Origin: Ignavibacteria bacterium
GTDB taxonomy: Bacteria > Bacteroidota > Ignavibacteria > UBA10030
Assembly: GCA_016873805.1 (NCBI GenBank)
Contig: VGVZ01000003.1
Location: 1-64,000, forward strand
Length of the DNA: 64,000 nt
Reading direction: 5' to 3'
Both the position numbers and the translations under genes were made by a program. Below are positions 9,490-27,648 of this stretch, piece after piece; position 1 is the stretch's first letter; the number at the start of each line of letters is the position of its first letter. The notes under the pieces were generated by a model, which was not told where the DNA came from, did no database searches, and saw only the letters and a list, made by a program, of their open reading frames with translations.

Positions 9490-10701
9490 TCATTCTTCTT
9501 CAAACGACAAGAACCACTCTTCGCTCGCGCTGAACGTCAATCCCAACCTCACAAATGTGTCCCTCTGCAGCGCATTGGACGTCGTGCCACGAATGCCCGC
9601 CTGGATACCGAGATTCAATCGAGCGTCGGGACCGATCGGGAGACCAATTCCCCCCGTGACAAAGTACTCGTTGATCGGCTCTCCCTTCATCATCAAATAC
9701 GTTTGATGGAACCCGGCGCCGAATCGGTAAAACGTGTTCGCCCAATACCCGCTTGCACCTCTGACAGGCTGAATCTCGAGACCCAACCCTGCCCGGACGC
9801 TGTTGCGATACGAGACCTCCCGATAGGCCTGGAAATCCGCCCGGCTCCATTCCTGGACGGTGAGATCACCCGCCAAAACGTAACGATTATTCAGTAAAGA
9901 AGAAAACCCCACGCCGTACGACAGAGGCCATCGGAGCGACCGGTCTGCGGTTGTCACCGTGTCGAGAAATCCATCGGAAGATATCAGGTTCTCATTTTTG
10001 ATCGAGAAGTGGGCGGGCGTTCCGACGGTCGCGCCGATCGTTGTACTCTTCGAAATCGAATAGACGGCACCCAGCGTGACGTTCACCGCACGATAGAAAT
10101 CAGAGTAGCGCAATTCGTTGTCTGTGTACAGCGGATCATCAAAATCGATCATCACCGTCTGACCGATGCGACCGAACAAGTAGTTGAGCTGTAATCCGAC
10201 GATGATGGTCGAGTCAATCCCGTACGACGATCCGATTGAGAACCGCGAGAGTCCGCCGTTTCCCAGAAACGTCTGACGCGAGGTAATCCCCATCCATGCA
10301 TCGGTTTCCTGCACCTTGTAGCTCACGGAGCTGAGAGGTGATGCGCTGAGCGTGAGGACCGCACCCCGGCTCCGTGCGATCGGGATGGCGACGGCAACAG
10401 CCTGGAACTCCCCGCGGGAAAAGTTCACATCACCCGACGGATCGGCGGACGTGACGTTTTGATATTCGAATGAACCGGAGAAGCGGGTGAAGGCGATCTC
10501 TGCATTCCCCGCGGGATTCGTCCGGTTGATGAATCCACTCCCCGTCAGACCGATGGATGTTCCTCCCATCGCGTAACTTCGGCTGCTGCCGAAAAGTCGA
10601 AGATCTCCGATCCCGTACCTGGAGTAAATCGGTCCGCCTGCATAGCTCTCCAGGGGAAGAAGCAGCAGTGTTGCCAGAAAGATGAGTGGAGATCGTTTCA
10701 T
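9490..10701 (-). CDS. Outer-membrane beta-barrel protein (FadL/PorV-like pattern)
   Basis: The product (403 aa) has a signal peptide ending near SYAG and then GGPIYSRYGIGDL. Next is a region (SYAMGGTSIGLTG...INRTNPAGNAEI) that resembles the N-terminus of FadL/OmpP1 and PorV-like barrels, where an AMG-A-A-ND-NPA type motif is common. The rest alternates polar and hydrophobic residues as in transmembrane strands and ends in WFLSFEEE. The ATG at 10701 is chosen because AGG lies six bases upstream; ATG 10707 is possible. The preceding gene is a lipoprotein, so the two may work together at the outer membrane. Substrate unknown. Confidence 0.7.
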   Translation of the reverse strand: MKRSPLIFLATLLLLPLESYAGGPIYSRYGIGDLRLFGSSRSYAMGGTSIGLTGSGFINRTNPAGNAEIAFTRFSGSFEYQNVTSADPSGDVNFSRGEFQAVAVAIPIARSRGAVLTLSASPLSSVSYKVQETDAWMGITSRQTFLGNGGLSRFSIGSSYGIDSTIIVGLQLNYLFGRIGQTVMIDFDDPLYTDNELRYSDFYRAVNVTLGAVYSISKSTTIGATVGTPAHFSIKNENLISSDGFLDTVTTADRSLRWPLSYGVGFSSLLNNRYVLAGDLTVQEWSRADFQAYREVSYRNSVRAGLGLEIQPVRGASGYWANTFYRFGAGFHQTYLMMKGEPINEYFVTGGIGLPIGPDARLNLGIQAGIRGTTSNALQRDTFVRLGLTFSASEEWFLSFEEE

Positions 10702-10730
10702 ATGCATCCTGAAAAAGCGTCCGGCGTCAA

Positions 10731-11927
10731 TTACCGGAGCGGTGAATACGTCACAGTGATTCTCGGCCGTTTGTTCTTGTCCGGCGAGGAAGATCCGTGG
10801 AATGCCATCACGTCAAACGCGTTTCCTTCGTTGATACCGGCGATCGCGAGTTGATACGGGAGACCTCCTCGAACCCATCGCTGCACAAACGTCTGCAGAG
10901 GGAACCGGAACACAGTCTGGCCGTCGATCGTGACCGGCGTCTCACTTGATTCGAAGATCGCCTCTACGTACCCGAAATCGGTCAGGTAGATCACAAAGAG
11001 CGAATCAACAGAGTATGAATTGCGAACGGATTTCGATTTGTCGAGGGTGAGTTCCAGAACGGCCCGATGCACCGGTGCACGGGGAGGGAGGGGCGAAATA
11101 TCGAATCCGACGACGCCCCGATAGACGAGTCCGTTGCGCACGTAGATCGTCGTGCTGTCGGTCAGCGACTGCCGGTTCTTCATCGTCGCGACATGGCGAG
11201 AGAATCCATTCATCAGGCTTGCGGACGCTACGGAAGAATCCTGCGGCCGTTTGTATGTGATCACGAGACGCGGGCGATGGGACGTATCCGCCGCAGTGAA
11301 CGAACTGAATCCCTTGATGACGGCAGAGTTGAGCGGCTCGAGGATCAATCCCTCATTGTTGGATGTGATCGCAAACAGCGAATCGATCCAGCGCTGAACG
11401 ACTCTTGGTTCGAGAGGAACCGAGATCCTCATTGAATCGCTGAGGCCGGAAAACTGGACGACGGGGCTCGTCGTCGCGGAAGAGAATCCGGCAGCTTTGA
11501 TCGAATCGTAGCTCAATGAGTCGCCCATCCATGACCGTTCGGCCCGATGGATACGAAACGCGAACGGCGCAAGCGAATCTCCATGGTGGTACGACGTCCT
11601 CAGGTGCAGCGATGCCTCCTGAACGACGATTCCATAGAGCGAATCGGGGATGGAGGTGAATCGAATCAAGCCCCATGATTCGTACTGAAGATTGTCGTTC
11701 CTCCCGATCAGCAGCCGGCTCTGCCCGAACGGGGCGTAGAGGGCAGGCTTCCCGAACGTCTTTGATGCGGAAAGCGTAAGGGTATCGAGTCTCAGGAGAT
11801 CGGCGCGTGGGAGCAACGACGATCCCACAGGGCTCGGCTCATCGACGCACCCGATTAACAGGAGCGACGCAAGCACGAGTCCGATGAAGAGCCATCGTTG
11901 TTTGATCGTGTGTGCTCGGTTGTTCAT
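10731..11927 (-). CDS. Lipoprotein with DNRLRE/DUF4270-like features
   Basis: The product (398 aa) has a lipoprotein signal peptide (FIGLVLASLLLIGC) with the lipobox Cys near residue 27, so it is probably anchored to the outer membrane. The start of the mature protein (PSPVGSSLLPRADLL) resembles DUF4270 lipoproteins of Bacteroidota. Two beta-rich blocks follow, each with Ser/Leu-rich strands ending in RPRLVITYKR and RPRITVTYS, the pattern of DNRLRE-type domains. The ATG at 11927 overlaps the upstream gene stop by four bases (ATGA), which decides this start over the longer frame. Function unknown; a surface or cell-wall role is inference. Confidence 0.7.
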   Translation of the reverse strand: MNNRAHTIKQRWLFIGLVLASLLLIGCVDEPSPVGSSLLPRADLLRLDTLTLSASKTFGKPALYAPFGQSRLLIGRNDNLQYESWGLIRFTSIPDSLYGIVVQEASLHLRTSYHHGDSLAPFAFRIHRAERSWMGDSLSYDSIKAAGFSSATTSPVVQFSGLSDSMRISVPLEPRVVQRWIDSLFAITSNNEGLILEPLNSAVIKGFSSFTAADTSHRPRLVITYKRPQDSSVASASLMNGFSRHVATMKNRQSLTDSTTIYVRNGLVYRGVVGFDISPLPPRAPVHRAVLELTLDKSKSVRNSYSVDSLFVIYLTDFGYVEAIFESSETPVTIDGQTVFRFPLQTFVQRWVRGGLPYQLAIAGINEGNAFDVMAFHGSSSPDKNKRPRITVTYSPLR

Positions 11928-12529
11928 ACTTCTCTCTGAGATCCTACGTGTTTCGACGAAACCCTGGTCTTGATGTGTACCCAACCCTGATAGAGATCAT
12001 CCGCAATATGTCCCACCTTCATTGTCTGGAGGCATTCATCTTTCTCCATCCTTCCATAACCCGTCAGCACAAGAACGGTGCCACAACCCGCATTGTGCCC
12101 TGCCTGTACATCGATACAACGATCCCCGATGACATAAGACGAATGAAGGTCGATGGAATGTTCCCGTGCGGCTTGGATGATCATTCCTGTCTTGGGTTTC
12201 CGACACGTGCATTCTTTTCTGTACAACGGGGGACCAACGTCGGGATGATGGGGACAGTAGTAGATCCCGTCGATGCGTGCTCCTTCGTTTGCCAGAAGCT
12301 CCGTCAACCTCGCGTTGACGCGCTCCAGATCGTCGGTCGTCAGCAGGCCGCGTGCGATGCCGGACTGATTCGAAACGATGCACACCTTGAGGCCGAGTTC
12401 ATTTGCTTCCCGGATTGCATCGGCGGCCTTCGGGATGAGGATGACCTCCTCCGGTTTGGAAAGGAAATCAACTTCCTGATTGATCGTGCCGTCGCGATCG
12501 AGGAAAAGACCGATGTGCTGCGGAGTCAC
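11924..12529 (-). CDS. gmhB: HAD phosphatase, GmhB-like (heptose 1,7-bisphosphatase family)
   Basis: The product (201 aa) belongs to the HAD-IIIA histidinol-phosphatase/GmhB group. It has the catalytic LDRDGTIN near residue 10, VSNQSGIARG (motif II region), a Cys/His zinc-loop pattern in YYCPHHPD and CTCRKPKTGM, and GDRCIDVQAG (motif IV). GmhB removes the 7-phosphate (C7) of heptose 1,7-bisphosphate in ADP-heptose synthesis for lipopolysaccharide core. It starts with GTG four bases after the glgA stop and overlaps the next gene. No other heptose genes were seen here, so the exact substrate is not certain. Confidence 0.85.
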   Translation of the reverse strand: MTPQHIGLFLDRDGTINQEVDFLSKPEEVILIPKAADAIREANELGLKVCIVSNQSGIARGLLTTDDLERVNARLTELLANEGARIDGIYYCPHHPDVGPPLYRKECTCRKPKTGMIIQAAREHSIDLHSSYVIGDRCIDVQAGHNAGCGTVLVLTGYGRMEKDECLQTMKVGHIADDLYQGWVHIKTRVSSKHVGSQREV

Positions 12530-14493: not shown

Positions 14494-17400
14494 ATGCGCC
14501 GATATCTTAGCGTCGTCATACTCCTGATACTGTGCACGACATCTGCGACTGCGCAAACATCGGTTGGTCTGTCGGCGACGCGACAACATCCGAACGAGAT
14601 CGTCATCCGGTTCGAGCCGATGTATACTCACGTCCCGGTCCTCACGTCGGAAGGACGCGAGCGCGTGCGTATCCGATTTGCCGGGGAGATGCATGACGAT
14701 CTCCGGAGCGGAATGCCGATACTGCCACACATCAGAAGGAGTGTTGATCTCCTGACGGCAAGCGCCCGCATCGAAATTGTTGAATCAGCGTACGAAGAGA
14801 GGCAACACGTTGATCTTTTGAAGTATCCCGTGCTCGTGAAGGATGAGGAGTTCGGTGCGGCGCACGAGTATGGTGCGGTGAGAGAGATGGAATCGACCGG
14901 ACGCCGCGACCTCGCAGAACTCGTGGATGTGGCTCGGAGCGGTGATCGGTTTGTGGGAACGGTAAGGATCAATCCGGTGCAGTACGATCCAGCACGAAGA
15001 GTTGTCCGATTCTATACGAAGGTGGTCGTGCGGGTCATGACGCAGGGAACGGAAAGCCCAAGAGTCGCCGAGTCCGTTCTCCAGGATTCGCCACTCCGCC
15101 AGGGTGATTGGTATCGGATGGATGTCAAGGACGAGGGAATCTACCGAATCGATCGAGCCTTTCTGCAGAGTGCGGGCATTCCGGCATCGCTCTTTTCAAA
15201 TATCAACGCCGTCCGGATCTTCGGGAACGGCGGGAGGATGTTGCCTGAGGATCTTCTCGCAAGCAGGCCGGCCGGACTGCAGGAAGTCGCACGTCACGTC
15301 GTGGATCGGAACGGCAACGGACAGTTTGATACCGACGACTATATTCTGTTCTACGGGCAATCGACGCGCGGATGGGATTATTCGGCGAAGACGAAAACGT
15401 TCTCTCACGTTATCAACCATTATACAGAAACAAACCGCTACTTCATCACGTTTGCCGGACCCGTGGGGAAAGGGATGGATTCGATCGCCTCGATATCGCT
15501 TCCGGGTGCAATCCGGCCGCCCGATTTTCAGGGTCGGGAATTTGTGGAAGAGGAACGATTCAATCTGTTCAAGTCAGGGCGTCAATGGTACGGTCAGATC
15601 TTTGATCCGTCGGCGAGCAGTGCCGTGATTGCCATCTCGCTCCCCGGCATTGACACCTCGAAGGCGGTCACCTATCGGATTGTGCTGCTCTCGCGGGCTG
15701 CTGTCGATGAATCGTTCAAGATCGAGGAGGGGAACTCGTTGTTGGGGCGAATCAGCACGTTCGGTGTGGACGTCGCCTCCATCGAATACGAATTTGCGTA
15801 TGTGACACCGGTCTCGACGTTCACCCGTCGTGGTCCGCTTCAGGATAGCCGGAGTCTGATCCGCGTAACCTATGAGCTGCAGAGCACGGCCTCGAGAGCG
15901 TGGCTGGATTGGATCGAAATTCTCTACCGGAGAAGATTCAATGCGGTCAACGATCTGCTCGCCTTTGCGACGCCGGATACTACCGGGGTTGTCGAATATG
16001 CGCTTTCGAATTTCAGTTCGCGGGATGTTCTCGTGTTCGACGTGAGCGATCATTCCGGTGTCCGACGAATAACCGGATTGACGATGGATCCTTTGGAGAC
16101 AGGGCGATTCAGCTTTCAGATGTCTCAGTCGGCAGGATCGGTGCGGGAGATTATTGCCGTTGGACCGAATGGATTCAAAACGCCGTCGGGAGTTCAGAAA
16201 GTGGAGAACTCGAATTTGTACGGCATCACGACTGGTGCGGAGTTCATTATCGTCACGCCAAAGGAATTCGTCGCGGAAGCTCAGCGATTGAAGAGCCACC
16301 GTGAGGCGCGCGATTCCTTGACCGTCATCATCGCAGAGGGGGACCAGGTTTTCAATGAGTTTTCGGGAGGCATCACCGATCCGATGGCTGTCCGCGATTT
16401 TCTTTATCGCGCCTACACCACGTGGAAGGTCAAAGCGAAGTACGTGCTCCTCTTCGGTGACGGACATTTTGATTACAAGAGTATCAGCACCACTGCGAGG
16501 AATTGGATTCCGCCGTACCAGACAAGCGAGTCGATTCACCAGATCCTCTCCTATGCGAGCGATGATCACTTCGTTATGCTGAATCCCGCGAATCCCCGCG
16601 TCTCGCTTGCGATCGGCCGGTTGGCGGCGAACTCCGTGAAGGAGGCTACCATCGTTGTGGACAAGATCATTCGGTACGAGACTCAATCGGCGACAGATCC
16701 GTGGAGAAACCGCGTAACCTATGTTGCCGATGACGGATTGACATCGACACGCGACGAGGGAAGCATCCACACCTATCAATCCGAGATTCTCGCGCAGCAT
16801 TTCACACCGCCGTCCATCGAGAAGCGAAAGATTTTCATTATTGAGTACCCCACGACCAGTAGCGCCTCCGGCCGCAGAAAGCCCGAGGCGAATCGGGCGA
16901 TCATCGACGCGATCAACCGCGGCACCCTCATCATCAACTACACCGGGCACGGGAATCCTCAACTTTGGGCTCATGAGGCGATCTTTACGCGTGAGGCCAG
17001 CCTGCCTCAACTGACCAACCGTGATCGACTGATGCTGCTCGTTGCGGCGACGTGTGACTTCGCCCGGTACGACAACCCGTCCGAGCAAAGTGCCGGAGAA
17101 GAAATCATCACGATGGAGAGGGGGGGAGCGATCGGTGTGATCACCGCCTCGCGTCCCGTCTATTCGTTTGAGAACTCACAGTTCAATAATTCCTACTACG
17201 CGGAACTCTTCACGCGTGATGCGAACGGGCGAATGCCGACGTTGGGCGACGCCATGTTTCGGACGAAACAGTTGCTCTACAGCGTCAACGACGTGAAATA
17301 CCATCTTCTGGCCGATCCCACCATGCGGCTCGCCGCACCCCCGATTCTCGCCTCCGTGGACAGCGTCAATGGAAAATCGCTGCGGGATGTGGTTGAGGTG

Positions 17401-18399
17401 CAGACTCTCGGGAAAGCCGACGTTGCGGGCACCATCCTCAATCAGCACGGCACGCGGTGGAATGAGTTCAACGGCCGTGCCATCGTTGAAGTGTACGATT
17501 CGAAGCGTACGGTAACTGTGGCGGAGTGGGGGAATTTCAGTTTCGACGTCAACGGCAGTTTGCTCTATCGCGGAGAGGTGACGGTGTCGAACGGGCGCTT
17601 CCGATCTGTCGTACCGATTCCAAAGGACGTTTCGTACGATAACAATCGGGCGCGCATTGCCGTATACGGTTGGACATCTGCTTCCGATGTTGTGGGCTAT
17701 ACGGAGAGCGTTTGGATCGCAGGAACGGACACTTCGGCCGCCAAGGACACGACCGGTCCGCGCATCGAGGTCTTTCTCGGACGAGAGTCATTCAGACCCG
17801 GGGATGTCGTTCCGCCGGACGTGATGCTTTATGTGAAGCTGCAGGATGTGAACGGGATCAACACCTCGACTGCCGGTGTGGGACACCGACTCGAAGCGTC
17901 GTTGCCGACCTTGCAGAGGTCGATCGATCTCTCCGACTACTATCGGAGTGATCTCGATACGTACCAGAGCGGAACCGTTTCCTATCCGATGACGCAGATT
18001 CCAGAGGGGAGACATTCGGTGCTCGTCAAAGCGTGGGATACCCACAACAATTCATCGGAGTTGGAGACGTTCTTTGAGGTGCGCGCAGAATCGATGCTCG
18101 ACCTCTACCACGTGTACAATTTCCCCAACCCGTTCCGCAGTGCCACGATGTTCACGTTTCAACGTTCATCCGGCGAACCGATCGATGTCGAGGTCAAGAT
18201 TTACACGCCGGCGGGGCGACTCATCGAAGCGATCCGGCGATTCGCGGTGAACGATCAGTTCGTTCAGATTCCGTGGGACGGGCGCGATCGGGATGGGAAC
18301 GAGGTCGCAAACGGGCTGTATTTCTACAAGATCATTGTCCGGTCGTTTGAGGAGGGGAGATCGAAGGAGGTGATCGGGAAGCTTTCGGTGTTGCGATAG
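14494..18399 (+). CDS. porU: T9SS C-terminal signal peptidase/sortase, PorU-like (C25 family)
   Basis: PorU sits at the cell surface, cuts off the C-terminal sorting signal of T9SS cargo and attaches the cargo to anionic lipopolysaccharide. The product (1301 aa) has a signal peptide (VVILLILCTTSATAQ), an N-terminal propeptide-like beta region, and a gingipain-type C25 domain (about 590-920). The catalytic dyad residues are visible as His819 in NYTGHGNPQ and Cys854 in ATCDFARYDNP. A C-terminal FlgD-like Ig domain (YNFPNPFRS...GLYFYKI) ends the protein. The ATG at 14494 has GGTGG just upstream and directly precedes the signal peptide; the open frame back to 13885 overlaps glgA. It is somewhat longer than the P. 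gingivalis enzyme. porV follows 82 bases later. Confidence 0.9.
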   Translation: MRRYLSVVILLILCTTSATAQTSVGLSATRQHPNEIVIRFEPMYTHVPVLTSEGRERVRIRFAGEMHDDLRSGMPILPHIRRSVDLLTASARIEIVESAYEERQHVDLLKYPVLVKDEEFGAAHEYGAVREMESTGRRDLAELVDVARSGDRFVGTVRINPVQYDPARRVVRFYTKVVVRVMTQGTESPRVAESVLQDSPLRQGDWYRMDVKDEGIYRIDRAFLQSAGIPASLFSNINAVRIFGNGGRMLPEDLLASRPAGLQEVARHVVDRNGNGQFDTDDYILFYGQSTRGWDYSAKTKTFSHVINHYTETNRYFITFAGPVGKGMDSIASISLPGAIRPPDFQGREFVEEERFNLFKSGRQWYGQIFDPSASSAVIAISLPGIDTSKAVTYRIVLLSRAAVDESFKIEEGNSLLGRISTFGVDVASIEYEFAYVTPVSTFTRRGPLQDSRSLIRVTYELQSTASRAWLDWIEILYRRRFNAVNDLLAFATPDTTGVVEYALSNFSSRDVLVFDVSDHSGVRRITGLTMDPLETGRFSFQMSQSAGSVREIIAVGPNGFKTPSGVQKVENSNLYGITTGAEFIIVTPKEFVAEAQRLKSHREARDSLTVIIAEGDQVFNEFSGGITDPMAVRDFLYRAYTTWKVKAKYVLLFGDGHFDYKSISTTARNWIPPYQTSESIHQILSYASDDHFVMLNPANPRVSLAIGRLAANSVKEATIVVDKIIRYETQSATDPWRNRVTYVADDGLTSTRDEGSIHTYQSEILAQHFTPPSIEKRKIFIIEYPTTSSASGRRKPEANRAIIDAINRGTLIINYTGHGNPQLWAHEAIFTREASLPQLTNRDRLMLLVAATCDFARYDNPSEQSAGEEIITMERGGAIGVITASRPVYSFENSQFNNSYYAELFTRDANGRMPTLGDAMFRTKQLLYSVNDVKYHLLADPTMRLAAPPILASVDSVNGKSLRDVVEVQTLGKADVAGTILNQHGTRWNEFNGRAIVEVYDSKRTVTVAEWGNFSFDVNGSLLYRGEVTVSNGRFRSVVPIPKDVSYDNNRARIAVYGWTSASDVVGYTESVWIAGTDTSAAKDTTGPRIEVFLGRESFRPGDVVPPDVMLYVKLQDVNGINTSTAGVGHRLEASLPTLQRSIDLSDYYRSDLDTYQSGTVSYPMTQIPEGRHSVLVKAWDTHNNSSELETFFEVRAESMLDLYHVYNFPNPFRSATMFTFQRSSGEPIDVEVKIYTPAGRLIEAIRRFAVNDQFVQIPWDGRDRDGNEVANGLYFYKIIVRSFEEGRSKEVIGKLSVLR

Positions 18400-18481: not shown

Positions 18482-19600
18482 ATGAAGTCTATGTTCAGGA
18501 AATTTTGGATTGTAGTGATTCTTGCGGTATTCGCTCTGGTTGAAACTGCGCAAGCACAGCCGACGACTTCGGCGGTCCCTTTCTTGCTGATTGCGCCGAA
18601 TTCGCGCGCAAGCGGACTCGGAGAATCCGGGGTTGCTGTCGCCGATGATGCATGGGCGCAATATTGGAATCCGGCCGGACTCGCGTTCCAGACAGGATCG
18701 GAATTCAGTCTGTCGCACGCGAACTGGTTGCCCCAGTTTCAGCTTCCTGAACTCTGGATCGCACACGCAGTGTATAAACAGTATTTCGAGGAAGTGAATG
18801 GAACTGTCGCGTTGGGAATCGCATTCCTGAATCTCGGTGAATTCAACCGGACACTGCCGACGGGTCCCGAAGTCGTGGGAACGTTCAAGTCCTATGAGTT
18901 TGCGGTCACGGGCGGATACGGCACAAAGCTGAGCGACTCGTGGGGCATTGGAGTCAACGCAAGGTTTATCTACAGTCGACTCTCTCCATTCGGCACGGCG
19001 CAGGAACAGGGACGCGGAATTGCCTCCGGCTTCAGCTTCGACGCGGGATTCATGTACAAACCGAAGTACTTGATCTTCGAACGTCTCCCCATGGATGAAC
19101 GACTGAGCTTCGGACTGAATGTCTCAAACATCGGACCGAATCTTACGTACGTCGACAAAGCGCAGTCCGATCCCCTGCCGATGAATTTCCGAATCGGCGG
19201 CGCCTATCAAATCGTGAAAGACACCTACAACAGTCTTTCCTTCAACATCGATTTCAACAAGCTGCTGATCAGGCGCGACAGCACAGTCACCGACCCGTTC
19301 TACAAGGCGATTGTCACGTCGTGGTATGACAAGCCCTTTTCCAAGGAACTGCGCGAGTTTGTGACGGGTCTCGGATTGGAGTACTGGTACGACGATCCGC
19401 GCCTCGTGGGTCTGCGCGTCGGATACTTCTACGAAGATCCGGAATTCGGAAACCGGAAATTCCTCACGTTCGGGGCCGGCATCCGATACAACATGTACGG
19501 TTTTGATTTCAGTTACATCAGCACTTTTGAAGAGAGACATCCTCTCTCCGAGACGCTGCGTTTCACTCTGTCGATTGCCTGGGGGCGGGGGGGCGAGTAG
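18482..19600 (+). CDS. porV: T9SS outer-membrane protein PorV (LptO)
   Basis: PorV is a FadL-like barrel that carries cargo from the T9SS translocon to PorU. The product (372 aa) has a signal peptide ending AQAQP, then AVPFLLIAPNSRASGLGE and GVAVADDAWAQYWNPAGLAF, the defining PorV N-terminal motif. The remainder is a beta-barrel with strand-like alternation, ending FTLSIAWGRGGE. GGAGG lies directly before the ATG at 18482, so the second ATG at 18491 may be the true start. Its position right after porU supports joint function. Confidence 0.9.
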   Translation: MKSMFRKFWIVVILAVFALVETAQAQPTTSAVPFLLIAPNSRASGLGESGVAVADDAWAQYWNPAGLAFQTGSEFSLSHANWLPQFQLPELWIAHAVYKQYFEEVNGTVALGIAFLNLGEFNRTLPTGPEVVGTFKSYEFAVTGGYGTKLSDSWGIGVNARFIYSRLSPFGTAQEQGRGIASGFSFDAGFMYKPKYLIFERLPMDERLSFGLNVSNIGPNLTYVDKAQSDPLPMNFRIGGAYQIVKDTYNSLSFNIDFNKLLIRRDSTVTDPFYKAIVTSWYDKPFSKELREFVTGLGLEYWYDDPRLVGLRVGYFYEDPEFGNRKFLTFGAGIRYNMYGFDFSYISTFEERHPLSETLRFTLSIAWGRGGE

Positions 19601-19733
19601 CTCATCCGTGCCGATGGGGCCGGCCGATGATCGGGTATTCTCTTGAGACCCAGGTCGACGACGGTGGAATGGCGCTCGCCCGAACCCGAAGTCCGGCCTC
19701 GGAGATTATCCCGCGTCCTTGATCAATCCGGAA

Positions 19734-22700
19734 ATGCAAAAAGCAATGACCATGCGCATTCGAACGGCATTGTTGCTGCCGTTCTTCGTCTCTTCGATTC
19801 TTGTTGCTCAAATGAATCACGCTCTTCGTGCGGGAGCGCATGATGCCCAAGAAGCGCGACCCGTATTCATAGAGCGGACGTCGGGGCCGGGGGACACGGT
19901 TCGAGTCCTGGCGTTGATGGTTCAGTTCCGGCAAGACAGCGATCCGCGCACAACAGGTGACGGCCGCTTTCAGCTGACGGCCGGCAATCCATCATTGATC
20001 GATCCGCCTCCCCACGATGCCACCTACTTTTCCTACAAGCTCCGCTTTCTGGAAAACTACTACCGAAAGGTCTCAAACAGCAAACTGATCATCGCCGGTG
20101 AGGTCTTTCCTTCGATTGTTTCCCTCGCCGATTCGATGGCGGTCTATTCCCCGAGTCGTGACGGGAGCAATGCGCCCCTTGCCCGTCTCGCCGTGGACGC
20201 ATGGTCGGCAGCATCGAATGTCCAACCCACCTTCCCGTTTTCGCGCTTCAACGCATTCATCGTTTTTCACGCCGGCGCCGGGCGGGATATCGATCTGGTG
20301 AGTCAGCTGGGATTTGATCCGACACCGAACGATATTCCTTCGCTCTATCTGAGTCTCTCCGCGCTGCGGAAGCTCCTGAACAATCCGGCTTACGCCGGTA
20401 TTCCGGTCAACAACGGGGCATATCGCATTCCGCATACGCTCATTCTGCCCTCGACCGAAAGCAGGGTCCTGACAACCTCGCAGGGGCCCGATACGTTGCA
20501 GTTGGGTACGAATGGAATTCTCGCGGCGACATTTGGAAGCTTCCTTGGCCTTCCTGATCTGTTCAATACAAAGAACGGCCGCTCCGCGATCGGGCAGTTC
20601 GGGTTGATGGATGGCGCAGGGATGTTCGCTCTTCGCGGACTTTTTCCTCCCGAACCGTCGGCGTGGGAAAAGATCTATCTTGGCTGGACCGTCCCTTTGG
20701 TGATTCGGTCGAATGCGGAAATTCATCTTCCTGCAGTCAGCTTCACCTCCGCCGGCGGCGATTCGATCTACAAAATTCCCATTTCAAGCCGTGAGTACTA
20801 TCTCGTGGAGAATCGTCAGCGTGATCCACACCGCAACGGCCAGAGGTTGAACGTGTATCAGGGAGGCAAAGTTGTCGAGCGGTTCTTTTCGCAGGATACT
20901 GCCGGATTTCAGTTGAACGACGTTCGCGGGATTGGCGGGGTCGTTTTTGACGTTGAGGATTTCGATTGGGCGCTGCCGGGCGCGATGGCGCAGAAGGGAT
21001 TTGAGGGAGGAGGGATCCTCGTCTGGCATGTCGATGAAAAAATCATCGAAGAAAAACTCAATGAAAATGAAGTGAACGCTGATCCAAAACGTCGCGGCGT
21101 GCGATTGATCGAAGCTGACGGCGCGAACGACATCGGGGAGAATTATGCCCCCCTGCAGGCAGGGAGCGGGACCGAGTTCGGATGGCCGCTCGATTGCTGG
21201 TTCGCCGGCAACACCGCCCCACCATATCGGAACGTCTTCAACGAATCTTCGTACCCGAGCAGCCGTTCCAACAACGGATCACCGACGTTGATCACGCTGA
21301 AAAACTTCAGCGCTCCGGGAGCGCGCATGACGCTCACGCTCGAACTTGGTAACAGTTCCCTCCGACAGCTGGATGATTTCTCCCGTACCCTTGGTGCCTC
21401 TTCATCTTCAAAAGTATTTCACCCGGCCGTGACGAAATCCGGCATTTTCATTGGCATCGGGGAACATGTCTACGCATTTCGACGGGATGGAAGTTCAAAG
21501 ACGAAATCCCAATCCGGACTCCTCTCCGCGGTCGGCGGGGCATCCGGCGTTGCGGTCCTGGAAGAAGGCGGCGCAGAAACAATCCTTGCGGGAGCCGCGG
21601 CAAGAACTGTATACATCTGGCGGGCGAGCGATCTGAATGCCGACGGCGTCTTCGACACGGTATTGACCACCACGTATCAAACGAATGCTGATGTGTCGAC
21701 TTCCCCGTCGTTTCTCCGACAGAGTTCAGGATACAGCGTCGTCGTCGGGACCGCGGGGGGCGGGGTGCTCGTTATCGGCCTTGACGGCCAGTTGCGGGAG
21801 CGCATCCTCAGGTCCACCGGAACCGTCTCGTCGATCGCTCAGCTCCCGACAGGGAATCCCACGAGACCGTTTGCCATCTTTCAGTCGGTGGAGGGACAGC
21901 TCTACGGCGAAACCACCGCCGTTGCCTTCCCCGATTCGGCGCTGCCATGGATCATCGCAGGAGTGGTTACACCGGAGGGGAATCGAATCGTCGGCGTGGA
22001 GCGCGGCGGAAAGAAGATCGTCGCGTTCGATCAGTCGCTTGGGTCGAAGATCTTTCAAAATACGATTGACGTCGGGCTTATTCTGTCGGTCGGCGCGTCC
22101 GATATTGCCGGCGATGGAAAAAAGAACTTCGTCGTGCAGACCGATTCGGCCCTCTATGTGCTGAACGCACGCGGCTTCATTACCGATGGATTTCCCGTCA
22201 GACTTCCGGCCGGAGATACCTACGTCGAGAATGCCCTTGTCGGAGATGTTGACGGGGACGGTATCGCCGACATCATCAGCGTGAGCGGGCAGGGTCTGCT
22301 TGCCGCGGTCACGAACCGCGGAAAGCCGCTCGCCGCATATCCGGTCCAGGTATTCGAGCCGGTCGCGACGGGCATAGCGCTTTTCGAGACGCCTGCAGGA
22401 AAGGTCGGAATCGTCTCCGTGTCGAATACGGGGAGGATGCGAGCGTTCGAAACCCAATCCGTTTATGCTCCGGGGAAGCTTCTCTGGGGACAATTCCTCC
22501 AGAACGAACGGCGTTGGAATGCCGATACGACCGTCACCTTGTCGCCCCGTCCTCTCTCAAGCGAGTTCTTCCCGAAAGCACGCGTCTACAATTGGCCAAA
22601 CCCGGTGTACGGGAACAGCACGCAGATTCGGTTCTACGTTTCTGAGGATGCCGAGATCTCGATACGCATCTTCGATCTGGCCGGTCTCGAAGTCGCCAAA

Positions 22701-22847
22701 CTGCAATCGATGGCGCGGGCCGGCATCGATGGAGAGGTGACGTGGGAGGTGTTCGATATCCAGAGCGGAATCTATCTGGCGAGAATCGAAGCACGAGGAC
22801 GCTCGCGTACAGAAACTGCCGTCGTCAAAATTGCCGTTGTCAAGTGA
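19734..22847 (+). CDS. M6-like protein with degenerate metal site and T9SS sorting domain
   Basis: The product (1037 aa) has a signal peptide (RTALLLPFFVSSILVAQ). Residues about 60-360 follow the M6 metallopeptidase layout, including YYRKVSNSKL, NPVYG-like later domains and GLPDLF. At the place of the zinc motif HExGH, however, the chain reads A265-T-F-G-S269 before FLGLPDLF, so both His and the Glu are missing. The middle (about 560-930) is propeller-like with FG-GAP-type segments (GDVDGDGIADI). The C-terminus (VYNWPNPVYG...GIYLARIEA) is a T9SS type A sorting domain. The likely start is ATG 19734; ATG 19746/19752 or TTG 19719 are possible. It is probably secreted and non-proteolytic. Role unknown. 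Confidence 0.75.
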   Translation: MQKAMTMRIRTALLLPFFVSSILVAQMNHALRAGAHDAQEARPVFIERTSGPGDTVRVLALMVQFRQDSDPRTTGDGRFQLTAGNPSLIDPPPHDATYFSYKLRFLENYYRKVSNSKLIIAGEVFPSIVSLADSMAVYSPSRDGSNAPLARLAVDAWSAASNVQPTFPFSRFNAFIVFHAGAGRDIDLVSQLGFDPTPNDIPSLYLSLSALRKLLNNPAYAGIPVNNGAYRIPHTLILPSTESRVLTTSQGPDTLQLGTNGILAATFGSFLGLPDLFNTKNGRSAIGQFGLMDGAGMFALRGLFPPEPSAWEKIYLGWTVPLVIRSNAEIHLPAVSFTSAGGDSIYKIPISSREYYLVENRQRDPHRNGQRLNVYQGGKVVERFFSQDTAGFQLNDVRGIGGVVFDVEDFDWALPGAMAQKGFEGGGILVWHVDEKIIEEKLNENEVNADPKRRGVRLIEADGANDIGENYAPLQAGSGTEFGWPLDCWFAGNTAPPYRNVFNESSYPSSRSNNGSPTLITLKNFSAPGARMTLTLELGNSSLRQLDDFSRTLGASSSSKVFHPAVTKSGIFIGIGEHVYAFRRDGSSKTKSQSGLLSAVGGASGVAVLEEGGAETILAGAAARTVYIWRASDLNADGVFDTVLTTTYQTNADVSTSPSFLRQSSGYSVVVGTAGGGVLVIGLDGQLRERILRSTGTVSSIAQLPTGNPTRPFAIFQSVEGQLYGETTAVAFPDSALPWIIAGVVTPEGNRIVGVERGGKKIVAFDQSLGSKIFQNTIDVGLILSVGASDIAGDGKKNFVVQTDSALYVLNARGFITDGFPVRLPAGDTYVENALVGDVDGDGIADIISVSGQGLLAAVTNRGKPLAAYPVQVFEPVATGIALFETPAGKVGIVSVSNTGRMRAFETQSVYAPGKLLWGQFLQNERRWNADTTVTLSPRPLSSEFFPKARVYNWPNPVYGNSTQIRFYVSEDAEISIRIFDLAGLEVAKLQSMARAGIDGEVTWEVFDIQSGIYLARIEARGRSRTETAVVKIAVVK

Positions 22848-23555
22848 ATGTGTGTGCCTCAGCAGGGGCCGACCTTTGCATTGAACATTTTTCGATTTCT
22901 CATCTACTCTGCCGTTGCCGCCGCGGGGTTCTTGCTCGGCTGTGAGCGGGATCTCCCGATCGATCCCTCGAGCCGTGAGGTCGAGGGCTATCTCATCGAG
23001 GGACGCGTCACCAATCGCTTCGGCATCCCCCTGACCAACATCGATATCAGATTGGACTTCGACCTCATTCTGGTCGATCAGAATGATCCTGCTCCGCGTT
23101 ACTATATTGTCAGAAATCCGGGCGAGTTTGTGACCGTAGTGGTTCAGGAAGACCGCGGAGGAACTGTCCGTACGCTTGCATCAAATAACTATCCCGGAGG
23201 ACGAATCGAATACGCGTGGGACGAAAAACTGCCGGGGGGTGAATTGGCACCAAGCGGGCTCTATCATGTCCGATATCTTGTCAACGGCCAACCGCGTTAC
23301 TCGTATCCCGTTCTTGTCACGAACACGGTGACAGCTCGAACAAATGCAGAAGGATTGTTTGTGATCCCGGACCGCCGTCTGCCGATCGGGTACGAACCGG
23401 TTCCCGTCTACGGGAGCAACAATTCGTTCTTCTACGGGAATCATCGTGTGGGCACTCGCGTGTTCCTCGGGTTTCTCCTCGGCGGAAGAACCCGCGTGCT
23501 CTCTGTCCATCCGTCAAAGAATCGGGCGACCCGTTTCGACGTCATCATCAACTGA
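22848..23555 (+). CDS. Lipoprotein with a CarboxypepD-reg/transthyretin-like domain
   Basis: The product (235 aa) starts at an ATG immediately after the stop of the M6-like gene. Its signal peptide ends AAGFLLGC, a lipobox, so it is a lipoprotein with Cys near residue 31. The mature part (EGYLIEGRVTNRFGIPLTNI and later beta strands) resembles the Ig-like carboxypeptidase-regulatory or FlgD-type fold. No enzymatic motif is seen. Tight spacing to both neighbours suggests co-translation and a shared surface function. Confidence 0.65.
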   Translation: MCVPQQGPTFALNIFRFLIYSAVAAAGFLLGCERDLPIDPSSREVEGYLIEGRVTNRFGIPLTNIDIRLDFDLILVDQNDPAPRYYIVRNPGEFVTVVVQEDRGGTVRTLASNNYPGGRIEYAWDEKLPGGELAPSGLYHVRYLVNGQPRYSYPVLVTNTVTARTNAEGLFVIPDRRLPIGYEPVPVYGSNNSFFYGNHRVGTRVFLGFLLGGRTRVLSVHPSKNRATRFDVIIN

Positions 23556-23561
23556 TTGATT

Positions 23562-26500
23562 ATGAACAAGTGGCTTCATTTGCTTCTCGGTGTCGTGCTT
23601 GGGTACGCGCACGTGTATTCCCAGGAATCCCGATTCCCGCATCCGGAACTCGAATGGCAGACGATCGAAACGGCGCATTTCCTCGTTCATTATCACAACG
23701 GCGCGGAGCGAACGGCAAGGGAAGCGGCACGAATTGCGGAAGCGGTCTACAGGCCAATCACCGACCTCTACCGCCACGAACCGGATCAGAAAGTGAGCTT
23801 GGTCATCCGTGACCATGACGACTATTCTAACGGCGCGGCGTACTTCTACGACAACAAGATCGAGATCTGGGCTTCATCGATGGATTTTGAGCTCCGGGGA
23901 ACCCACCCGTGGCTGCAGAACGTGATCGCTCACGAATTCACGCACATCGTCCAGATTCAAACGGCGATGAAGCTCGGACGGACCATTCCGGCGATCTACC
24001 TCCAGTGGTTCGGGTACGAGTCGGAGCGCCGACCGGATGTCCTCTACGGTTTTCCCAACGCGCTCGTGTCGTATCCCTTCTCCGCGTTCGTTGTTCCGAG
24101 CTGGTTTGCCGAGGGAGTGGCGCAGGTGAATCATCCGGACCTGCGTGTTGACTATTGGGATTCTCATCGTGACATGATTCTCCGGATGTACATGCTCGAC
24201 GGCAATCCCCTGAGTTGGGAACAGATGGCGGTATTCGGCAAGAACAGTCTTGGAAACGAATCGTCATACAACGCGGGGTTTTCAATCGTTCAATACATCG
24301 TTGGAACGTACGGTGTGCAGAATCTCGAGGCGATTTCGCGTGCCCTTGGTCGTTCTACACGCGTGACGATCGACGGAGCCGTGCAGGAGGTGCTGGGAAA
24401 GAGCGGTAGCGAGCTCTTCGAAGAATGGAAGTCAGATCGGATGAAGAAGTATGCGGAGCAGGTAGGCAATCTGCGCATAGGAGTGAATGGAGGCCGGACG
24501 ATTGAGCCGGAAGGATTTGGAAACTTCTATCCCGTTTTCACCCCCGATGGAACCACGATCGCTTATGTGTCCAACAAGGGGAAAGACTACCTGTCACAGA
24601 GTTCTGTGTACTTGTTCGATCGGCGAACGTCAACCTCCAAAAAGATTCGAGACGGCGTGCGATCGACCCTTTCGTTTTCACCTGATGGAAAGTACCTTTA
24701 CTACTCGAAGATCACGACCGGCAATGCGTTTCACGCGAAGCTTGGCGACCTCTACCGGTTCGATCTCGCCGGAAAAAAGGAAGAGCGTCTCACGCAAGGT
24801 GCGCGGGCCCTCAATCCAAAGCTTTCTCCTGACGGAACGCGCCTGGCTTTCACGGTCGGACACGACGGAACACGTAACCTTGCGGTATCGGATGCCGACG
24901 GAAAGCACATCAAGCGTCTCACAAATTTCCGTGACGGCGAACAGGTCTATACACCGGCGTGGTCTCCCGACGGTCGGAAGATTGCATTTGGTTTTTCGGT
25001 CTCCCATCGTCAGAATGTCGCGGTGATGGATGTCGAAAGCGGGGACACGAGGTCCCTCGATCTTGAGGGAGACGCCAGAGACCCTCAGTTTTCCGGTGAT
25101 GGCACGTCGATCTACTTCGCGCACGATCGCAACGGCATCTTCAACATCTTCTCGCTCAATCTGACCACGCTCCAAATCAACCAGCATACACATGTGTTGG
25201 GGGGAGCGTTCGTTCCTGCCGTGAGCGCGACGGGGGACATCGCATACTCATCGTACACGTCGACAGGATACAAGATTGCACTCTTGGATGACCCGGGTGC
25301 GGATGTTCCTCGGTCAATGATGATTGGGTCGTTCCGTTCGCTCGATGTCAACTCCCTGGAGAAGTACTCCTCGCACCGGAGCGGCGGTGATTCGACGACA
25401 GCGGCGATGGATCGACTCTTCACGCGTCGAGGGGAGTCGGAATCGTGGACGGCACGGCCGTATCGGAACACATTTACCAGTCTCACCATTGTTCCTGTCC
25501 TGCGCGTGGACAACTACAATCCGCGCAACAAGGGGATTGACGTTGTCAAAGGAGGGCTGTACTTCAGCTCGTTCGAAATGTTGGACAAGCTTCAGCTGTT
25601 TGGAACTGCAGTCATCAATCGCAAGGCGGAACGCGACCTCTATCTCGGAATTGAATACGGCGGAAGAGTTCCGCTTCTCTACCACCTCGGATTTGATCCG
25701 ACTCTCTCATTGGAGATCTTTAACGTCTCCCGGACAACGGATTTTTCGTTCAATCTGTTTGTCGATCGGGAACGGACATTTTCAGCGGAAGTCACGTTCA
25801 GTTTGCTTGGAATCGATTTCTCGCTCAAACAGCCGCTCAGGAGTGAAAAGAGTCTTCTGACGCTGCGATATTCGTATCAACGGTATATCCAGGATTTCGG
25901 CACATGGTTTCATCCGACATTCGGCGTGATCCAAGGGTCGCGCGCGATCTATCTGATCGGTCATGCGTTCGATGCGACATGGCGCCTGAACGCGATCGAA
26001 CCTTCGGTGGATCAAGCGATCGCTCCCGTTGGCCGCTCGATTTCACTGAGCATGGCGTACGAGAGAAACCAATTCAATCCGGAAGACGACTTCAAAATCG
26101 AAAACGGTTTTCGCGTACCGGTCTATAGGCGCTACGATTTTCCGCGGATGCAACTCCGCTGGAGCGAGCATCTGTCCCTCCCCGTTCGCCATCACACGCT
26201 CTCGGTCGAGCTTCAGGCCGGGAGTATCCTGGGTCCCGCCGTTGATGACTTCTTTGATTTCTACGCCGGCGGTTTCATCGGCATGAAGGGATATCCGTTT
26301 TACGCATTGGGAGGAAATGAGACGGCCTCGCTGCATGCGGCGTACCGATTCCCGATTACGCGCACGCTTGATTTCCGGTTTCTCCAATTCTACTTCACCA
26401 AGCTCTACGCGTCGCTCTTTGGAGATTTTGGAAACGCATGGGTTGGCGCCGCCCCGCCGCTCGGGGAATGGAAAAAAGATGCGGGGATCGAATTGCGTCT

Positions 26501-26681
26501 CGAAGCGTTTTCGTTCTATTCGTACCCGACCCGCTTCTTCGTGAGCGGAGCATATGGATTCGACCGATTTGAGAAAATCGTAAACAATGTAAAGGTCACG
26601 TACGGCCAAGAGTGGCATTTCTATCTCGGAGTCCTCTTTGGATTTGAGATCCGGGAGCTTGTGTCGCCGCGTCTTCGGTGA
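23562..26681 (+). CDS. HEFTH metalloprotease-TolB propeller-beta-barrel fusion
   Basis: The product (1039 aa) has a signal peptide (LHLLLGVVLGYAHVYSQ). Residues about 20-290 are a gluzincin-type (peptidase MA-like) domain with H124-EFT-H128 and a downstream WFAE (E184), the pattern of a zinc metalloprotease. Residues about 305-590 contain repeated WSPDG/SPDGK blades of a TolB/WD40-like propeller. The last about 400 residues are an Omp85/BamA-type barrel, with AAYRFPITRTLDFRF and LFGDFGNAW. The ATG at 23562 is preferred over the in-frame TTG at 23556. It follows the lipoprotein gene by 6 bases. It likely spans the outer membrane with a periplasmic or surface protease head; substrate unknown. 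Confidence 0.75.
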   Translation: MNKWLHLLLGVVLGYAHVYSQESRFPHPELEWQTIETAHFLVHYHNGAERTAREAARIAEAVYRPITDLYRHEPDQKVSLVIRDHDDYSNGAAYFYDNKIEIWASSMDFELRGTHPWLQNVIAHEFTHIVQIQTAMKLGRTIPAIYLQWFGYESERRPDVLYGFPNALVSYPFSAFVVPSWFAEGVAQVNHPDLRVDYWDSHRDMILRMYMLDGNPLSWEQMAVFGKNSLGNESSYNAGFSIVQYIVGTYGVQNLEAISRALGRSTRVTIDGAVQEVLGKSGSELFEEWKSDRMKKYAEQVGNLRIGVNGGRTIEPEGFGNFYPVFTPDGTTIAYVSNKGKDYLSQSSVYLFDRRTSTSKKIRDGVRSTLSFSPDGKYLYYSKITTGNAFHAKLGDLYRFDLAGKKEERLTQGARALNPKLSPDGTRLAFTVGHDGTRNLAVSDADGKHIKRLTNFRDGEQVYTPAWSPDGRKIAFGFSVSHRQNVAVMDVESGDTRSLDLEGDARDPQFSGDGTSIYFAHDRNGIFNIFSLNLTTLQINQHTHVLGGAFVPAVSATGDIAYSSYTSTGYKIALLDDPGADVPRSMMIGSFRSLDVNSLEKYSSHRSGGDSTTAAMDRLFTRRGESESWTARPYRNTFTSLTIVPVLRVDNYNPRNKGIDVVKGGLYFSSFEMLDKLQLFGTAVINRKAERDLYLGIEYGGRVPLLYHLGFDPTLSLEIFNVSRTTDFSFNLFVDRERTFSAEVTFSLLGIDFSLKQPLRSEKSLLTLRYSYQRYIQDFGTWFHPTFGVIQGSRAIYLIGHAFDATWRLNAIEPSVDQAIAPVGRSISLSMAYERNQFNPEDDFKIENGFRVPVYRRYDFPRMQLRWSEHLSLPVRHHTLSVELQAGSILGPAVDDFFDFYAGGFIGMKGYPFYALGGNETASLHAAYRFPITRTLDFRFLQFYFTKLYASLFGDFGNAWVGAAPPLGEWKKDAGIELRLEAFSFYSYPTRFFVSGAYGFDRFEKIVNNVKVTYGQEWHFYLGVLFGFEIRELVSPRLR

Positions 26682-26715
26682 TCGCATCGCACGCGGATAT
26701 GGGAGATCGCAGAGC

Positions 26716-27648
26716 ATGAAGCGCACCTCTTTTTCGATTCTTGCATTCCTTCTGGTACTTCTCCAGTCGGAGGGGAGATCTCAGAGCGTTTCTCCACCCG
26801 ACGCCCGCGGCGACGGGATCGGAGGCCTGAGCGGGGTCCTCCGCTACGATTTGCTCCCGATCGAGTCGCGGGCAAATTATCGGCTGGGGGACGGGATCAG
26901 TGATAAGGCGGTGGAGCATGAGAAATCTCCACTCCGAGCGGCTTTCTATTCGGCGATCGTACCGGGTGCGGGACAATTCTATTCGGAGTCGTACTTCGCC
27001 GCGGCGGCGTTCGGTGCGGCAGAGATCGGGCTCTGGGTTGTCTACGGGATCTACGATGCGAAGGGGGACAAGCAGACGCGTGAGTATGAATCGTATGCCG
27101 ATCGGAACTGGTCCGTCGTGAAATATGCCGAATGGATTGAACGGTACGGTTCAACGCTCAATCCCAATGCGACCATCCTCCAGGGAACCGTGATCAGTCA
27201 AAATCCCAACCTTCCTCCATGGGATCGGGTCGACTGGGTGAAGTTGAATCGAAATGAGGAGGCGATCGGACTGAAGACCGGAACCGGATTCAGCCATCGG
27301 CTGCCCCGCCGACCGGAACAGCAGTACTACGAGGTCATCGGAAAGTACGAACAGTACACGTCCGGCTGGAGCGATTCGAATGTCGGCACGCAGGACTATC
27401 TAACGAACGTCTCGCCGCAGTTTCGATTCTATCGCGATATGCGGGGGAGAGCGAACGACCTCTTCATGGTGGCGGGAACTGCAGCGGGGATTCTTGTGGC
27501 GAACCACCTCTTCAGCGCATTGCACGCGGCCTGGAGCGCGCACACGTTCAACAAGTCGATGAGCGTCGATCTCCAACTTCGTTCGATCGAGCGCCGACCG
27601 GGATGGGCGGAGTATGTGCCGACAGCGACTGTCACTCTCCACTTCTGA
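26716..27648 (+). CDS. DUF5683-like membrane-associated protein
   Basis: The product (310 aa) begins with a signal peptide (KRTSFSILAFLLVLLQ). Residues about 75-115 contain SPLRAAFYSAIVPGAGQFYS followed by a hydrophobic segment, like the PG-GQ-Y motif of DUF5683 proteins in Bacteroidota. A second hydrophobic stretch (AGTAAGILVANHLFSAL) lies near residue 265. The start at 26716 is directly before the signal peptide; the upstream frame lies inside the preceding gene. Function is not known. Confidence 0.6.
   Translation: MKRTSFSILAFLLVLLQSEGRSQSVSPPDARGDGIGGLSGVLRYDLLPIESRANYRLGDGISDKAVEHEKSPLRAAFYSAIVPGAGQFYSESYFAAAAFGAAEIGLWVVYGIYDAKGDKQTREYESYADRNWSVVKYAEWIERYGSTLNPNATILQGTVISQNPNLPPWDRVDWVKLNRNEEAIGLKTGTGFSHRLPRRPEQQYYEVIGKYEQYTSGWSDSNVGTQDYLTNVSPQFRFYRDMRGRANDLFMVAGTAAGILVANHLFSALHAAWSAHTFNKSMSVDLQLRSIERRPGWAEYVPTATVTLHF

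Follow-up and report, generated by a model that had tools for sequence, protein, structure and literature searches.

Gene Content of the Locus

The stretch of 64,000 nucleotides analysed here (the window) carries a run of plus-strand genes that begins with the T9SS genes porU and porV (Table 1). The porU open frame runs from 13885, and the start in the table was inferred from the methionine of the signal peptide. Alternative starts are possible for M6i (1042 residues) at 19746 or 19752, and Barrel (1041 residues) starts at 23556 or 23562. The original prediction described a surface module of three genes spaced 0–6 bases apart and a fourth 34 bases later. These four genes are real and lie where they had been placed, and the spacing was borne out: the gap is 0 bp between M6i and the lipoprotein gene, 0–6 bp between the lipoprotein gene and Barrel, and 34 bp between Barrel and the DUF5683 gene. 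The interval given for them, 18482–27648, had correct coordinates but begins at porV and therefore contains five genes rather than four; the four named genes occupy 19719–27648. A scan of the plus-strand junctions of the cluster gave no terminator-like match, which is weak evidence, and a UvrA-like gene (uvrA named from the sequence) lies 3′ of the DUF5683 gene.

A BamG homologue was also observed in the window, a few kb from the T9SS genes (9490–11984, minus strand; NF053685, 254.5 against a cut-off of 250). A DNRLRE-domain lipoprotein is encoded directly upstream of it, perhaps in the position of BamH in the Bacteroidota BAM complex.

Table 1. Genes and motifs of the locus, in window coordinates.
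Feature	Coordinates	Strand	Basis
porU, T9SS sortase, upstream neighbour	14494..18399	+	NF033707, 994 bits (cut-off 420)
porV, T9SS outer-membrane shuttle, linked neighbour	18482..19600	+	NF033710, 281 (cut-off 250)
M6i: signal peptide, M6-like domain without catalytic residues, beta-propeller, type A CTD	19719..22847	+	NF052323
Degenerate zinc motif of M6i, ATFGSFLGLPD	20526..20558	+	Column counts, 58 homologues
Type A T9SS C-terminal sorting domain (CTD) of M6i, last residues KIAVVK	22587..22844	+	TIGR04183
Lipoprotein, lipobox LLGC	22848..23555	+	PF13860, weak match
Barrel: signal peptide, Peptidase-MA-like zinc peptidase, TolB-like propeller, Omp85/BamA-like beta-barrel	23556..26681	+	AlphaFold2, Foldseek
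HEFTH, zinc-binding and catalytic motif of Barrel	23931..23945	+	64 homologues
WFAEG motif of Barrel, its Glu a probable third zinc ligand	24102..24116	+	64 homologues
DUF5683 protein, three hydrophobic segments	26716..27648	+	PF18935, hydropathy

The Inactivated M6 Protein

M6i matched the family of T9SS-dependent M6-like inactivated metalloproteases (NF052323) over its full length, with a score of 802.6 against the cut-off of 600. The earlier description of this protein as a pseudo-M6 homologue was correct; the HExxH motif was present in none of the 58 homologues. In the alignment columns, H270 was replaced by A, S, G or N, E271 by S, N, T or M, and H274 by S or N; G277 and D280 were kept, and Met297 was kept in 57 of the 58 sequences. 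The active M6 protein of a relative reads HEYGHIFGLPD at this site, with HExxHxxGxxD intact. The CTD scored 27.1 with TIGR04183 (cut-off 23) and 23.8 with PF18962, slightly under the cut-off of 27.

The AlphaFold2 model of M6i had a mean pLDDT of 90. Its Foldseek matches were propellers, with no M6 peptidase among the best 50, and a sequence search of solved structures returned only propellers and a weak match to the PorZ CTD. PorZ resembles M6i in having a propeller and a CTD, and M6i was considered as a stand-in for PorZ. This candidate was rejected because PorZ coexists with M6i, being encoded elsewhere in the carrier genomes, including that of the window (G000:C4:44966, away from the cluster). 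Moreover, the PorZ model NF052228 was not among the matches listed for M6i.

The Peptidase-Propeller-Barrel Protein

A peptidase domain, a propeller and a barrel were predicted in Barrel by AlphaFold2 (pLDDT 87.5, pTM 0.87). Foldseek searches with this model returned TolB (1.4e-14) and BamA (9hiv_A, 8.1e-9; 9n2d_A, 2.3e-9), as well as 7nre_A; the propeller scored 73 bits with PD40, and a GMRGY-type motif was present, as in Omp85 barrels. The H, E and H of the HExxH motif and the W, E and G of WFAEG were invariant in all 64 homologues. WFAEG had been one of the scan patterns for some loci, where its invariance is therefore partly selected, and it was also invariant in 17 sequences retrieved without selecting on it. 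The model, the structural matches and the motif conservation agree with the predicted HEFTH-propeller-barrel architecture, and with HExxH and the distal Glu kept, the zinc peptidase is seemingly working. Barrel scored 25.8 with Pfam Peptidase_MA_2, under the gathering score of 32.4, whereas its paralogue passes with 38. Similarly, PF01103 (Omp85) matched the paralogue but not Barrel of the window. No POTRA was seen in Barrel, and the TolB-like propeller stands in its place. The N-terminal domains of Omp85 proteins sit in the periplasm, as established for BamA, and by analogy a periplasmic location is expected for the propeller and peptidase of Barrel.

A TolB-like propeller followed by an Omp85 barrel is also found in the WD40-Omp85 cluster, in which this N-terminal fusion is reminiscent of BamA joined to BamB (Heinz and Lithgow, 2014, PMC4104836, as far as its available part goes). 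Barrel differs in having an N-terminal HExxH peptidase and a linkage to T9SS, neither of which is mentioned for WD40-Omp85 in that part. BamA of Escherichia coli is bound by BamB, a propeller, and outer-membrane proteins that have stalled are degraded by BepA, a zinc protease (PMC13067283). Barrel likewise unites an Omp85 barrel, a propeller and an HExxH protease at the outer membrane. However, it has all of them in one chain without a visible POTRA, its peptidase weakly matches Peptidase_MA and not the M48 family, and it co-occurs with T9SS parts.

The paralogue of Barrel in the window genome (L133:3743-7740) comprises an HELVH peptidase, a PD40 propeller and an Omp85 domain (PF01103). A BamB-like lipoprotein gene lies directly 3′ of it, and porZ is located ~4 kb downstream. 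At another locus (L129:10001-13108), a Barrel homologue was found with porU, porV, M6i and DUF5683 all absent within 10 kb. Barrel paralogues thus occur outside the module, and the fold alone does not imply work in T9SS.

The DUF5683 Protein and the Lipoprotein

The fourth predicted gene was rightly described as DUF5683-like, with a PF18935 score of 31.1 against the gathering score of 26.7; within this Pfam family, however, the window protein falls in a distinct subgroup linked to Barrel. Hydropathy over 16 homologues gave an N-terminal hydrophobic segment and two others at residues 94–112 and 249–274, which suggest that the protein may sit in the inner membrane. A sequence search of solved structures with the DUF5683 protein gave no match.

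The lipoprotein had weak FlgD-Ig-like similarity (PF13860, E 1.2e-5, under the cut-off). It was correctly described as a lipoprotein, but it was rejected as a core member of the unit: the gene was found in 18 of 80 named loci, every one belonging to a close relative of the window, and is a lineage-specific extra.

Gene Order in Relatives

Gene order was compared in 20 neighbourhoods from distant families and in 80 named loci, the latter retrieved by Barrel alone and including Ignavibacteria, Melioribacteraceae, 'Chrysopegis kryptomonas' and others; contig ends were left out of the counts. The order porU-porV-M6i-Barrel-DUF5683 was seen in most loci of both sets. Among the testable named loci, M6i was directly upstream of Barrel in 75/77, and in one of the two exceptions (L064) it was still present, farther off. 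porV lay upstream of M6i in 64/64, porU was upstream in 60/60, and DUF5683 was downstream of Barrel in 66/73. The median gaps were 57.5 bp (porU-porV), 11.5 bp (porV-M6i), 17.5 bp (M6i-Barrel) and 13 bp (Barrel-DUF5683). This order is more than chance because it was repeated in relatives whose Barrel is only 34–59% identical to that of the window. In 19 porU regions of genomes without the module, porV followed porU in 16, and no module gene was directly beside porU or porV; PorU went unrecognised by the script in one of these regions, and a distant Barrel paralogue lay four genes away in another.

Co-occurrence Across Genomes

All families were searched in the same fixed set of 148 Bacteroidota genomes. 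M6i was detected in 61 (57 above the curated cut-off and 4 as full-length relatives below it), with one full-length copy per carrier genome, and Barrel was detected in the identical 61 genomes with zero discordance. The DUF5683 clade was present in 60 of the 61 carriers, as well as in two genomes of family f20 without M6i and Barrel (L143:10187-10996; L144, in which the copy is in two frames). The translocon SprA was found in all 61 carriers and PorU in 57. The module occurred in 61 of the 117 SprA-positive genomes, and 46 PorU-positive genomes were without it; therefore, it is not a core part of T9SS. The refuting outcomes set beforehand in the original prediction, namely genes scattered among relatives with no co-occurrence or found without T9SS, were not seen for M6i, Barrel and DUF5683, which are linked to porU-porV, co-occur with hardly an exception and were never present without SprA.

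When mapped onto a tree of 38 PorU proteins, the distribution of the module requires a minimum of five gains or losses, which are forced by the starred branches, and each of them moves M6i and Barrel together. The 61 carriers fall into few clades, so the number of independent joint events is about 5 rather than 61. Moreover, six genomes of families f15 and f30 have kept M6i, Barrel and DUF5683 although the genes are no longer adjacent. Among all pairs, the partial distance correlation was highest for M6i-Barrel (0.54), a value that is suggestive only, the PorV distances being noisy. The three genes form a conserved module that deep Bacteroidota branches have jointly retained or jointly lost, and so they very probably act as one unit tied to T9SS. 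Joint descent without functional coupling might account for the concentration of carriers in few lineages and for the distances, all of which correlate with those of PorU, but it is very improbable in view of at least five joint changes, zero discordant genomes and the genes being kept jointly where the cluster has come apart.

It was also considered that M6i may be ordinary T9SS cargo, with Barrel as its dedicated maturation or anchoring factor and the porU-porV linkage as operon history. M6i does carry a type A CTD, and the genes of type B substrates are known to adjoin those of their shuttles (PMC12618676). Nevertheless, this reading is improbable given the single full-length M6i per carrier genome, a catalytic motif whose loss is fixed in deep lineages, and the joint loss of M6i and Barrel together with the persistence of both where they are unlinked.

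Genomes Without the Sortase

In four genomes (G061, G081, G108 and G119), PorU and PorZ were absent above the cut-off, and porV-M6i-Barrel-DUF5683 was intact and ordered. These genomes retain SprA and 7–31 CTD proteins. The module is therefore independent of the sortase, and its retention without PorU argues against an obligate step in sortase processing; a role of M6i as an obligate sortase accessory is likewise disfavoured, as all four genomes retain it.

The module resembles the PorU-PorV-PorQ-PorZ attachment complex (PMC5562754), in which surface CTD proteins are held by outer-membrane partners, but it differs in being kept where PorU and PorZ are missing and in that true PorZ is encoded elsewhere. 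Barrel and M6i might be imagined as a surface dock on which T9SS proteins are retained with no part played by sortase and A-LPS, with the peptidase trimming bound or inserted matter. The position of the module next to porV in these four genomes, which still carry CTD proteins, would fit such a dock, as would M6i being a single conserved CTD protein, with a CTD conservation near that of PorU (0.55 vs 0.57, in a comparison that had no cargo yardstick). However, 57 genomes with PorU, mostly with PorZ too, carry the module just as well, and the expected location of the peptidase and propeller is the periplasm, apart from secreted cargo. A dock of this kind is thus considered unlikely.

The loci L135, L136, L137 and L049 stand for four genomes of one family in which PorU and PorZ are missing while the T9SS translocon, PorV and CTD proteins are present, a natural sortase-less T9SS. 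Such PorU-less genomes allow one to ask what holds cargo there.

Proposed Role of the Module

The module is tentatively proposed to be a trans-envelope accessory of T9SS, probably in outer-membrane assembly or quality control. M6i carries a PorV-type export signal, and Barrel resembles BamA, BamB and BepA together; hence, a mechanism with M6i outside and the protease inside is thought most likely. Type A CTDs go to PorV (PMC12618676). M6i, Barrel and the DUF5683 protein would all be exported by Sec. The CTD would then take M6i through SprA across the outer membrane, and PorV would retain it on the surface, where it may be a non-catalytic binding partner of either Barrel, at its outer face, or the PorV/SprA exit. 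With the topology inferred from the Omp85 precedent, the Omp85-type barrel would have its propeller and zinc peptidase in the periplasm, where they would act like BamB, as a platform, and like BepA, as a protease, built into the same chain. Barrel may help to insert the outer-membrane parts of T9SS, or may clear their stalled forms or jammed cargo. The DUF5683 protein would connect the unit with the inner membrane, and the whole would work on the translocation/PorV side and not at the sortase step.

Quality control, anchoring and sensing fit the genomic data about equally well. In Porphyromonas, PorA acts upstream of PorXY-SigP. PorA is a CTD protein with a role in signalling, according to the available part of its source (PMC7712824), and M6i may by comparison report T9SS activity at the surface, with Barrel relaying the signal and cleaving a periplasmic regulator and the DUF5683 protein signalling to the inner membrane. 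The layout spans the surface, the outer membrane and probably the inner membrane, and an inactive protease domain and a propeller are both binding modules. On the other hand, a regulator gene was not observed among the conserved genes of the cluster, and to our knowledge no sensor is built like M6i-Barrel-DUF5683, which makes sensing an improbable role.

A further reading holds that M6i and Barrel are an obligate pair whose trans-outer-membrane complex would be a sortase-independent T9SS branch, with assembly, gating or proofreading of the PorV/SprA exit as its task. This is possible but doubtful. If true, a T9SS-exported pseudoprotease outside would be paired with an Omp85 barrel bearing a live zinc protease inside.

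Relation to Known Systems

Most of what is known about T9SS comes from Porphyromonas and Flavobacterium. The module points to an additional outer-membrane unit of T9SS in deep branches of the phylum, with strict co-inheritance, and it joins Omp85 biology (assembly and protease quality control) to T9SS. The propeller-Omp85 architecture is already known (2014, PMC4104836), and so is the M6i family, which NCBI curates as NF052323; the claim that the unit was unreported therefore fails for M6i. The window protein belongs to that family, but the model covers one protein only, whereas no family model was found for the orthologue group of Barrel and the module has none. In the open-access literature searched, which leaves most subscription journals outside its coverage, no paper on the module or on the group of Barrel was found, and nothing relevant was found on M6-like proteins with PorU, on PorU2, on DUF5683, or on M6 family metalloproteases with T9SS.

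A second C25 protein, which is PorU2-like, was observed at L134:5618-11106 on the minus strand (361.8 against a cut-off of 450). It comprises two open frames with a 4-base overlap, the second of which seems to carry a CTD, and may represent two genes or a frameshift.
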